Origin: Verrucomicrobiota bacterium
GTDB lineage: Bacteria; Verrucomicrobiota; Verrucomicrobiia; Opitutales; Opitutaceae
DNA length: 36,594 bases
NCBI GenBank assembly: GCA_016871775.1
Contig: VHCI01000023.1
Location: 1-36,594 of the forward strand
Reading direction: 5' to 3'
The notes below the pieces were generated by a model. The model saw only the letters and a program-made list of their open reading frames with translations. It was not told where the DNA came from and made no database searches. The translations under genes were made by a program, and so were the position numbers. This document shows, piece by piece, positions 21,332 to 27,141 of the stretch. Every line of letters begins with the position of its first letter. Position 1 is the stretch's first letter.

Positions 21332-23821
21332 TCAGGCTCCAGCGGGGTCGCCGGCGGCCGCCTGCTCCTCGTCCGTCTCGATGATCCGCGCAATGCTCAG
21401 CAGCTTGTCGCCCGGCTCGAGCGTGACCAGCCGGACGCCCTTGGCGCCGCGGCCCGTCTCGCGGATGCCGGCGACGGGGCAACGGATGCTCTGGCCTTTG
21501 GCCGTGAGCAGCATCACCTCGTCTTCATCGCGCACCGCGAGGGCGCCTGCGAGGTGGATGGAGCCGTCCTCCGGGAGATCGATGGCCCAGACGCCGCTGC
21601 CGCCGCGGTTGATCAGGCGGTAGTCCTCGAAGCGGGTGCGGACGCCGAGCCCGGCCTCGCTCGCGACGAGAAACTTCGCCGCGTGGTCGACCACGGTGAT
21701 CGCCTGCAGCACGTCGCTGACGAGCTTGAAGCGCATCCCGGTGACGCCCCCTGTGGCCCGGCCAGTGGGACGGAACAGCTCCTCGCCGGTTTCGGGGTCG
21801 CGCTCGCTGAGGCGGACGGCGAGGCCTTGGTGGGAGACGAGCACCAGTTCGTCGGCGCCGGTGGTCAGCACGGTGCCGATCACCGTGTCGCCGGGGTCGA
21901 GGTTGATCCCAATGATACCGCCGTCGCGGGTGCTATTGGCGTAGTCGGAGAGCGGGCTCTTTTTGATGACGCCGGCGCGGGTGGCCATCACGAGGAAGCG
22001 GTCGGCGACGAAGTCCCGCACGCAAAGCATCGCCGCGATCTTCTCGCCCTCGCCGAGGCGGAGGAAAGAGCCGACCGACTTGCCGCGCGAGGCGCGCGTG
22101 CCCTCGGGGACGTCGTAGCACTTGCGGGCGTGGCATTGCCCGCTGCTGGAGAGGAAGAGAATGAAGTCATGCGTGCTCGCGGTGAACAGGTGCTCGACGA
22201 AGTCTTCCTCGTAGGTCTCGGCTCCGATGACACCCTTGCCGCCGCGCCGCTGCAGGCGGTACTGGGCGGCGGGCGTGCGCTTGATGAAGCCGAGGTGGGA
22301 GACGGTGATCACGCAGCCCTCGTTGGGCACGACATCCTCCATCCGGAACTCGCCGGCGGCGGCCTCGATGGCGGTCCGCCGGGGCGAGGAGTGTTTGGCC
22401 TTCATCTCGAGCAGCTCACGCTTGATCAGGTCGAGCAGCTTGGCCTCGGACTCAAGGATGCCGCGCAGTTCCTCGATCAGCTTCATCAGCTCGAGGTACT
22501 CAGCCTCGATCTTGCCCCGCTCAAGGCCGGTGAGCTGGTAGAGTCGCAGCTCGAGGATGGCGTCGGCCTGGCGTTCCGAGAGCGGGTAGCGGGCCATCAG
22601 GCGCTCGCGGGCCTCCTCGCGGTTGGCGGAGGCGCGGATGATGCGGACAAAGTCGTCGAGGTGGTCGAGGGCGATGATGTAGCCCTCGAGGATGTGCGCG
22701 CGGTCCTCGGCCTCGCGGAGCCGGAAGCGGGTGCGCCGGGTGACTACCTCGCGGCGGTGCGCGAGGTAGCAATCGATCAGCTCCCTGATGTTCATCTGCT
22801 TCGGCCGCTTCTGGTCGAGCGCGAGGAGGATGACGCCAAAGGAGGACTCGAGCGCCGTCTTCTGGAAGAGCTGGTTGATCACGACCTTGGCCTGCTCGCC
22901 CCGCTTGAGCTCGATGACGATGCGAGTGCTCTCGTCCGACTCGTCGCGCAAATCGCGGATGCCGTCGACCTCCTTCTCGGAGACGAGCTCGGCGATGCGG
23001 GTGACGAGGGTGCTGCGGTTGACGTTGTAGGGGATCTCGGTTATGACGACCTGTTCCATCCCGCCCTTGAGCTCTTCGGTGTGGGCCTTGCCGCGGATGC
23101 GGACGATGCCCTTGCCGGTGCGGAGGTAGCTGAGGATGCCCTCGCGGCCGGAGATGATGCCCCCGGTGGGGAAGTCAGGTCCCTGGATGAGCCCGCAGAG
23201 CTCGTCGACGGTGATGCCGGGCCGGTCGATGATGGCGCAGGCGGCGTCGATGATCTCGCCGAGGTTGTGCGGAGGGATGTTGGTCGTCATGCCCACCGCG
23301 ATGCCGGTCGAGCCGTTCATCAACAGGTTGGGGAGGGCTGCCGGGAGAACGGTGGGCTCGGTGGTGGACTCCTTGTAGTTGGGGACGAAGTCGACCGTCT
23401 CTTCCTCGATGTCGCGCAGGAGGTCCTCGGCGATCTCGCGGAGGCGGGCCTCGGTGTAGCGGTAGGCGGCGGGCGGGTCGCCGTCGACGGAGCCGAAGTT
23501 GCCCTGCGGGTCGATCAGCGGGTAGCGCATCACCCAGGGCTGGGCGAGGCGGACAAGGGTGTCGTAGACGGAGGAGTCGCCGTGGGGATGGAAGTTCTTG
23601 AGTACCTCGCCGACGACGCCGGCGCACTTGTCGAAGGCGCGGTTGTGGAGGAGCCCCTCGCGGAGCATCGCGTAAAGGATGCGCCGCTGTACCGGTTTGA
23701 GGCCGTCGCGGGCGTCGGGGAGCGCGCGCGAGATGATGACCGACATCGAATAATCGATGTAGGCCGTCTGCATGATGTCCGTGATGTTCGCGGCGGAGAG
23801 CTTTTCAGGGACGGTGGACAC
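21332..23821 (-). CDS. gyrA: DNA gyrase subunit A
   Basis: GyrA is the cutting subunit of the A2B2 gyrase that introduces negative supercoils. It has 829 residues and a GTG start ([17 protein letters not shown]). The catalytic tyrosine is Y122 in [10 protein letters not shown]. The quinolone region [19 protein letters not shown] has S83 and D87, the residues of a sensitive enzyme by E. coli numbering. The GyrA box QRRGGKG lies at 524-530, at the start of the six-bladed C-terminal wrapping domain, which separates it from ParC. The stop is 71 bases before the GntP-type gene. A four-helix bundle gene separates it from gyrB, although the two usually lie adjacent in such clusters. Confidence 0.97.
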
Positions 23822-23834
23822 GGGAAAGGAGCGA

Positions 23835-23847
23835 GGAGTGAGGAGCG
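23835..23847 (+). repeat. Left arm of a 13-bp inverted repeat flanking the four-helix bundle gene
   Basis: GGAGTGAGGAGCG here is exactly the reverse complement of CGCTCCTCACTCC at 24293-24305. The two arms enclose the four-helix bundle gene. The adjoining words AAGGAGCG and (a)gcgaa(aa)gct also recur in inverted order on the other side, which gives the flanks a loosely repetitive, purine-rich look. Confidence 0.6.
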
Positions 23848-23904
23848 GGTAGCGAAAAGCTGGCGGAAGCGGTTAGCCGGTGGCGAAGGACGCGGAGCGG
23901 CTGT

Positions 23905-24270
23905 TCACGCGCCGCCGCGCTCCATCCGATTGATAGAGCCCTGTAGGAGGCGGGAGACCTCCTCGACGCCGTCCTGAAGCGTCGCCGTGTCGGCGTAGCG
24001 CAGGTCGAGGGCGAGGATCAGCTGGTAGAGGCATTCGTTGGCGGAGCCCTGAGCGATGTTCAAGCAGCGGAGCTGATCCGGCTTGCTCCGTTTCCAGAAG
24101 CCCTCGACGAAATTCGAGGCGAAGCTGACCGCCGCGCGCCGCAGCTGCGCGGTGAGGGCGAACACCTCGTGCTGTGGAAATTGGTCCGCGCAGCAGTAGG
24201 TCGCCAAGGCGCAGGCGTGGGCCTTCCGCCAAGCGACGACGTCCCTAAACGATTGGGCTTTTTCAGGCAT
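23905..24270 (-). CDS. Four-helix bundle protein (23S rRNA intervening-sequence type, S23 family)
   Basis: A 121-residue all-helical protein with no signal peptide. FRDVVAWRKAHACALATY is the conserved first helix; AQLRRAAVSFASNFVEGF the second, with the family S/P-I/F-xxN-xxEG motif; LRCLNIAQGSANECLYQLIL the third, with the conserved A-x-GS-x-x-E; and VEEVSRLLQGSINRM the fourth. The family was first found inside intervening sequences of 23S rRNA genes and also includes relatives that assist diversity-generating retroelements; its function here is unknown. It sits alone between gyrB and gyrA, 83 bases before gyrA and 76 after gyrB, bounded by a 13-bp inverted repeat. No reverse transcriptase or rRNA gene is nearby. 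Confidence 0.88.
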   Translation of the reverse strand: MPEKAQSFRDVVAWRKAHACALATYCCADQFPQHEVFALTAQLRRAAVSFASNFVEGFWKRSKPDQLRCLNIAQGSANECLYQLILALDLRYADTATLQDGVEEVSRLLQGSINRMERGGA

Positions 24271-24292
24271 CAGTAAGTTGGGTGGTTTCAGG

Positions 24293-24305
24293 CGCTCCTC
24301 ACTCC
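24293..24305 (-). repeat. Right arm of the 13-bp inverted repeat flanking the four-helix bundle gene
   Basis: CGCTCCTCACTCC is the reverse complement of 23835-23847. It lies in the 76-base gap between the gyrB stop and the four-helix bundle start. Confidence 0.6.
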
Positions 24306-24346
24306 CCGCTGCTAGCTTCGCGCTCCTTCGCGGCTTGGCGCTGGGC

Positions 24347-27141
<2,795 letters not shown>

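Follow-up and report, generated by a model that had tools for sequence, protein, structure and literature searches.

Why does a lone gene for a small four-helix-bundle protein of the S23/IVP type lie between gyrB and gyrA, enclosed in a pair of inverted repeats, in a bacterium of the Opitutaceae (Verrucomicrobiota; assembly GCA_016871775.1, contig VHCI01000023.1)? The whole stretch of DNA analysed, referred to here as the window, is 36,594 nucleotides long. We conclude that the gene belongs, as a coding member, to a widespread group of tiny elements whose mirror-image ends are made of 7-letter repeats. The observations behind this conclusion concern the gene and its arms, the 7-nt period of the arms, the match between repeat unit and protein subfamily, the additional arrays in the genomes of carriers (some of them hairpins lacking an open reading frame, ORF) and the turnover of the gyr junction. 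The locus consists of the following features:

24347..26929, minus strand: gyrB, the upstream neighbour (PRK14939/gyrB, models of NCBIfam for this DNA gyrase subunit, above cut-off)
24316..24341, minus strand: GCGCCAAGCCGCGAAGGAGCGCGAAG, likely a remnant of the 5' arm of a GxxExxY-type element, lying beyond the S23 arm (by eye similar to the 5' arm that an intact GxxExxY element has at this junction in genomes G014, G008 and G019)
24293..24313, minus strand: 5' arm of the S23 element, on the gene strand AGCAGCG GGGAGTG AGGAGCG (inverted repeat of 21 nt, 90%, score 16)
23905..24270, minus strand: S23/IVP four-helix-bundle gene, 121 aa (PF05635, 4.4e-27)
23827..23847, minus strand: 3' arm of the S23 element, which reads on the gene strand as the reverse complement of AGGAGCG AGGAGTG AGGAGCG (same 21-nt inverted repeat)
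21332..23821, minus strand: gyrA, the downstream neighbour (PRK05560/gyrA NCBIfam models above cut-off)

The original prediction of a lone S23/IVP gene between gyrB and gyrA was borne out by PF05635 (94.8 bits, cut-off 33.8), by TIGR02436 (7.8e-27; 93.7 bits, cut-off 24) and by the NCBIfam gyrase models, and this gene is the only one within the 525-bp interval. The predicted model of the protein (pLDDT 94.1) has four helices (residues 12-28, 33-58, 63-89 and 96-118). Among solved structures, the closest is that of XCC0516 from Xanthomonas (2gsc; Z 19.5, with an rmsd of 1.2 across 112 residues; sequence E 2.9e-15), a relative whose paper mentions five four-helix bundles in its title. The fold is also that of Avd (Z 13.5-14.4), and the Avd model NF033474 gave 19.6 bits on the S23 protein, below its cut-off of 80. 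No enzyme family in Pfam or NCBIfam was matched by the S23 protein. With PF05635 as its sole Pfam match, the gene does not code for an HUH (Y1) transposase, and no transposase was detected by Pfam between gyrB and gyrA. The genome of the window, which is 96% complete, gave no match to the reverse transcriptase family PF00078.

The 13-bp inverted repeat predicted around the gene proved exact: the 13-mer GGAGTGAGGAGCG lies at 23835-23847 on the plus strand and its reverse complement at 24293-24305. The arms reach further than this, with 21 nt at 90% identity (23827-23847 / 24293-24313) and, in a looser alignment, 35 nt at 74%. They are built of degenerate tandem 7-mers, (A/G)GGAG(C/T)G, and the 3' arm ends 5 nt from the gyrA ORF. 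In the 36.6-kb window they are the sole inverted repeat with a score of at least 16 and arms at most 1 kb apart, and none of 2000 Markov shuffles of both flanks reached this score. The 13-mer word alone is not enriched, since its mismatch counts are close to control or expectation (8 matches with one mismatch in the genome of the window compared with 11 for the reversed control; 4 matches with two mismatches within the window compared with 3.1 expected); what is enriched is the inverted pairing around the gene. The pattern of these particular arms, GGAGYGAGGAGYGAGGAGYG, is rare, being present in 5/57 genomes and with a single match in the genome of the window (G000). Further arm copies next to other S23 genes of this genome, a search for which had been suggested as a check, were not found: the gene at the gyr junction is the single S23 gene detected there, and the exact 13-mer has one more copy (C61:16811), inside a GA-rich run. 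This copy belongs to an orphan array, GGAGTGAGGAGCGGGGAGTGGGGAGCGAGGAG, at L010:3312-3343 (G000:C61:16811-16842), which has a tRNA-Gly gene at a distance of about 240 bp, the S23 gene being elsewhere.

Inverted arms are the rule of the S23 gene family, and the case in the window offers a glimpse of a general pattern. Genes matching PF05635 occur in at least 40 of the 57 genomes searched, the window's included. From these genomes 91 S23 loci were taken, mostly the better-scoring among the matches listed, and their genes were oriented with a profile built from them. For 89 of 93 S23 ORFs (four were left out for short flanks), an inverted match across the gene with a score of at least 14 was found in 63 of these better-scoring loci of relatives, compared with 36/1068 for swapped flanks, 6/89 for direct matches and 4/445 for Markov sequences; the rows are not independent, because the sample contains related elements. 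Weaker S23 homologues carried arms in 9/20 cases. Among control ORFs of 90-160 aa from four genomes (591 of 600 sampled), which are mechanical ATG ORFs and in many cases surely not genes, 5/591 had arms. Below the arm score were 26/89 S23 genes and 11/20 weaker homologues. The flanks of seven homologues (L353, L355, L357, L363, L364, L369 and L371) stayed below this score and contained no heptamers, and homologues of this kind perhaps form a branch with another role.

The analyses of period, unit, neighbours and arm divergence are based on 66 S23 elements with an arm score of at least 13. The best arm period was 7 in 53 of them, 8 in 12 and 12 in one; the mean self-identity of the arms was 0.70 at lag 7 and 0.25-0.34 at other lags. 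Read in the orientation of the gene, the upstream arm was purine-rich in 62/66 elements.

Armed S23 genes are also present in other phyla. The window S23 protein as a query against named genomes returned no relative; the stretch of XCC0516 used instead led to at least 580 confirmed relatives in named genomes, of which the best 80 were kept and 78 used for the arms. A score of at least 14 was reached by 53/78 loci, as against 15/624 with swapped flanks and 19/78 for direct matches, the latter count being raised because at some loci long arrays lie on either side. The S23 arms consist of GGGAATC in three Xanthomonas species and in Luteimonas, and of GGGATTC in Dokdonella. A scan for GGGAATC arrays in the genomes of 38 hand-chosen loci among the 80 named ones gave 124 matches in X. 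arboricola, 48 in X. dyei, 64 in X. vasicola, 92 in Luteimonas and 16 in Dokdonella, but 1 match in the other 33 genomes searched; as the five genomes are related, this represents one phylogenetic case. In Xanthomonas, GGGAATC has been described as a repeat that occurs throughout the genome, is mostly transcribed and forms G-quadruplexes; two genomes contain 70 and 75 convergent inverted pairs of it, near stop and start codons (Rehm 2015, PMC4692102). Judged by its letters, the heptamer of the Xanthomonas S23 arms is the same as this published, unexplained genome-wide repeat; the main text of that article contains neither the term 'S23' nor 'four helix'. In the open-access literature searched, no paper was found that links S23 genes to heptamer arrays; the closest one notes heptamers in a single element, the intervening sequence (IVS) of Coxiella (PMC4990558).

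The repeat unit differs among S23 elements (AGTAGCG, AGTTGAG, AGGAGTC, GGCGATG, GGAGTTT, GGCACAAA and others) and follows the S23 protein: close proteins share it, distant ones do not. Counting a unit as shared at 6/7 letters or better, and without pairs of two gyr elements, it was common to 89% of 35 pairs with a protein identity of at least 70%, to 63% of 57 pairs at 60-70% and to 1% of 343 pairs at 40-50%. Across 58 elements, unit and protein similarity were correlated (Mantel r 0.31, p 0.001), and S23 pairs inside one genome had the unit in common in about 2/48 cases. The outcome that had been named as contrary to the prediction, namely arms that are common words unrelated to the family, was therefore not observed. 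The match of unit and protein may result from joint descent alone. In pairs with 60-70% protein identity, the match between both arms of an element is better than that between corresponding arms across species (20.5 compared with 13.5; 58 pairs), which argues that both arms of an element change together. The values were 19.5 and 17.8 at 70-80% (30 pairs), and at 80% or more the order was reversed (22.8 and 27.2; 29 pairs), a pattern that recent divergence would predict. By eye, the 5' arm of the gyr element in G009 mixes AGTAGCG and AGGAGTG units and seems transitional between the window's unit and the one seen in the other gyr elements.

Arrays of such units also occur apart from the gene. 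With overlapping matches in one array counted separately, GTAGYGRGTAGYGRGTAGYG (unit AGTAGYG) was found in 19/57 genomes with up to 102 matches, and its reversed control in none except G013 (8), G020 (1) and G056 (7). The array RGTTGARRGTTGARRGTTGAR (unit AGTTGAR) was present in 14/57 genomes with up to 120 matches; its reversed control, the letters of which can match the same arrays in another frame, reached up to 10 per genome. At least 10 array matches of AGTAGYG were seen in 6/8 carriers of the matching S23 gene and in 3/49 other genomes, and for AGTTGAR the figures were 7/8 and 1/49. In the sampled loci, 22 inverted AGTAGYG pairs comprised 7 S23 elements and 15 short pairs (two of them overlapping) of 67-178 bp without an S23 gene. 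The motif AGCAT marks exactly one inner end in 10 of the 14 short pairs checked by script and in an eleventh by eye; in coding S23 elements, this AGCAT end includes the ATG start codon of the S23 gene. The view of the arms as the ends of a small unit, raised as one option in the original prediction, is thus well supported, both by their recurrence at most S23 genes sampled in relatives and other phyla and by the short inverted pairs that lack the gene.

Unbiased scans of 400 kb revealed short periodic hairpins in G017, G029 and G030. All three hairpins of G017 with 7-nt units match an S23 gene of that genome, whereas in G029 2/9 short hairpins have at least 6/7 identity to the units of its three armed S23 genes, and a third with a 6-nt unit resembles an S23 unit by eye. 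Arrays of AGTAGYG also occur without the respective S23 subfamily in G007 (34 matches) and G013 (63 matches). The single-contig genome G030 has no PF05635 gene among the matches listed, and it holds 26 AGTAGYG and 43 AGTTGAR array matches. The tie of arrays to a matching S23 gene is therefore strong but, in view of the hairpins of G029 and the arrays of G030, not absolute. A separate observation in G017 (L177 and L178, 320001-360000) concerned REP-like palindromes of the type GTGGGAGCGAGCTTGCTCGC, located at positions 329254 and 358391 within the 400-kb sample.

The junction between gyrB and gyrA has a variable content. It could be read over its full length in 29 cases, i.e. at 28 of 30 gyrA loci, two being cut by a contig end, and in G009. 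Eight junctions contain an S23 gene, six an armed GxxExxY gene, 13 a short spacer and two other genes. The proposed comparison with relatives in search of empty sites thus revealed a nearly empty junction (36 bp in G020), another armed gene, or a short hairpin, and S23 genes at this site without arms were absent, all 8/8 being armed. Of the 13 short spacers, 6 contain an inverted repeat that is equalled in no more than 1/200 shuffles and whose units, judged by eye, have 6 to 8 letters. At the junction of G031 (L130), two small genes were noted by eye, one AbrB-like and the other PIN-like, perhaps a toxin-antitoxin pair, and another small ORF fills the spacer of G003 (L122).

The GxxExxY genes at the junction (L102, L104, L105, L107, L110 and L113) have inverted arms of their own with units such as GCGCCAAG. 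Genes of this family (TIGR04256), which we take to be of the PD-(D/E)XK type, carried arms in 25/30 loci (L131-L160), compared with 9/180 for swapped flanks and 3/30 for direct matches; their units, such as CACAGAGNN, CGCAAAGNN and CACGGAANN, are 8 to 10 nt long by eye. Hairpins without an ORF and with GxxExxY-type units were found in G017 and G030. On the gyrA tree, in which 6/26 inner branches are well supported, the S23 gene requires 7 changes and the GxxExxY gene 5, at least three of each being forced by well-supported branches. The content of the junction does not follow this tree, because shuffled labels often do as well, and it differs between the well-supported sisters G006 and G007. 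The genome of the window and G009 are nested among GxxExxY carriers. From this position, and from the likeness of GCGCCAAGCCGCGAAGGAGCGCGAAG to the 5' arm of the GxxExxY element in sister genomes, we infer that the junction of the window once held a GxxExxY element, which the S23 element displaced. Neither an insertion event nor a target duplication was seen, and the relatives offer no closely matched empty junction to read one from.

At the gyr junction, the S23 genes are under purifying selection (dN/dS 0.04-0.17 in 27/28 species pairs). Between the window and G009, its nearest S23 relative in the sample, dN/dS was 0.50. The synonymous divergence of the gyr S23 genes is comparable to that of gyrB and therefore gives no sign of a recent horizontal transfer. 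No short heptamer hairpin was found in 400 kb sampled from the genome of the window. With one gene, one orphan array, no such hairpin in the sample and a raised dN/dS, the copy looks isolated and relaxed, and the S23 system appears to be near its end in this genome.

By analogy with REPIN/RAYT systems, we lean towards reading the interval as an S23 element whose protein recognises its own arms. The S23 protein would bind its heptamer array as folded nucleic acid, and this binding would keep and spread arm pairs with the cognate unit. The coding copy would settle for a long time at a fixed operon junction, and copies without the ORF would disperse to stop/start junctions elsewhere. The cutting and joining of strands would be left to host enzymes, because the S23 protein matches no enzyme family. 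A broader reading, which we offer tentatively, would regard S23 proteins as specificity factors of bacteria-wide, enzyme-free mobile elements, each subfamily reading its own 7- or 8-letter word that is written several times in both arms. The intergenic heptamer repeats of Xanthomonas, Geobacter, Beggiatoa and cyanobacteria would then be offspring without the ORF, the 23S rRNA IVS would be copies that landed in rRNA, and the GxxExxY genes would form a second class built alike with an arm grammar of its own. Two old puzzles would thereby be joined, the role of the common lone S23 genes and the origin of bacterial intergenic heptamer arrays, and since a protein family is paired with a 7-letter word that can be read, simple binding assays can address both. 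If true, this would be an unusual element whose sole gene seems to provide recognition but no chemistry.

The main rival to a mobile element, and one compatible with it, is that S23 is an RNA-binding regulator: the heptamer hairpins at stop/start junctions would be its mRNA targets, the gene would be self-regulated via its own site, and dispersal would be secondary. S23 elements do sit between co-directional genes, with a same-strand stop within 80 nt upstream in 51/66 and a same-strand start within 80 nt downstream in 55/66, but the counterparts on the other strand amount to 36/66 and 15/66, and chance ORFs in GC-rich DNA inflate all four counts. Published heptamers are mostly transcribed and have positions beside start or stop codons (Rehm 2015, PMC4692102; MacGregor 2015), the Geobacter sites of five tandem heptamers are predicted to bind a global regulator (PMC2700814), and the fold relative Avd (Z 14.4) belongs to a reverse-transcriptase ribonucleoprotein according to the titles of structure entries; all this is consistent with regulation. 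However, the content of the gyr junction varies among relatives, unlike that of a stable regulon, and base changes in the arms show no preference for G.U pairing on the gene strand. Compatible changes numbered 53 on the gene strand and 83 on the opposite strand (p 0.013, rows not independent), and selection for a gene-strand RNA stem was rejected on this basis. Altogether, we consider the regulatory explanation unlikely.

Still less probable is an RNA unit of the IVS type, in which the arms would pair in the gyr mRNA, RNase III would excise the interval, and rare reverse transcription would account for its spread. Folding of the interval, suggested as a check beforehand, did pair the arms in the predicted gyr-strand RNA (z -2.79, 2/100 shuffles equally good). 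The Coxiella IVS is similar in having three tandem GACAGAT heptamers directly before the S23 start codon and a 28-bp stem that RNase III cuts at the start of the first heptamer (PMC4990558). The link to 23S rRNA intervening sequences that had been proposed therefore holds for the anatomy, but the arms bear no G.U sign of a gene-strand RNA stem that is being kept, and excision would presumably separate the gyrB from the gyrA mRNA. Spread driven by a reverse transcriptase was rejected as well: PF00078 is absent from 37/57 genomes, the window's included, and several of these (G001, G004, G007, G010, G013, G015, G017 and G029) hold array populations, large ones among them, so that an RVT_1 enzyme is not required. 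Passive hitchhiking, by which S23 genes would settle in, or be copied along with, hairpins formed from slippage-born heptamer tracts, is very improbable, since slippage produces neither matched inverted arms around a single family of genes nor repeat units that track the protein, and other ORFs of S23 size lack arms (5/591 with arms), even though the repeat number varies between Coxiella strains (PMC4990558) and between Xanthomonas sites (Rehm 2015, PMC4692102) and G030 holds array populations with no S23 gene among the matches listed.

The self-recognising S23 element that we favour would resemble REPIN/RAYT systems in its long-lived coding copy and in a repeat type tied to the protein type. 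The many inverted pairs without an ORF that such systems have elsewhere in the genome find counterparts in relatives, with none in the 400 kb sampled from the genome of the window. RAYT is an HUH-type transposase. In contrast, S23 matches no enzyme family, and its arms are arrays of 7-mers, whereas REPINs are single palindromes. Avd of the diversity-generating retroelements has a similar fold, but the genome of the window is without PF00078 and the Avd model remains below its cut-off.

Like the element of the window, the IVS of Coxiella has one S23 gene in an inverted-repeat stem and tandem heptamers before the start codon (PMC4990558), and its authors termed it a selfish genetic element. It differs in being located in the 23S rRNA instead of at a junction of protein genes in an operon, and the passages describing it tell of no dispersed copies without the ORF (PMC4990558). 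The TAACTGA repeats of Beggiatoaceae (PMC4679880) and the Geobacter sites (PMC2700814) are likewise intergenic heptamer arrays, near start codons or paired, although those of Beggiatoa are mostly direct arrays (PMC4679880); for both groups a binding protein was postulated, and the passages describing them name none (PMC4679880, PMC2700814). The GGGAATC repeats of Xanthomonas and the GGGGA(C/T)T repeats of Nostoc were published as G-quadruplex repeats (PMC4692102); those of Xanthomonas share with the S23 elements the heptamer of the Xanthomonas S23 arms, the convergent pairs and the position near stop and start codons.
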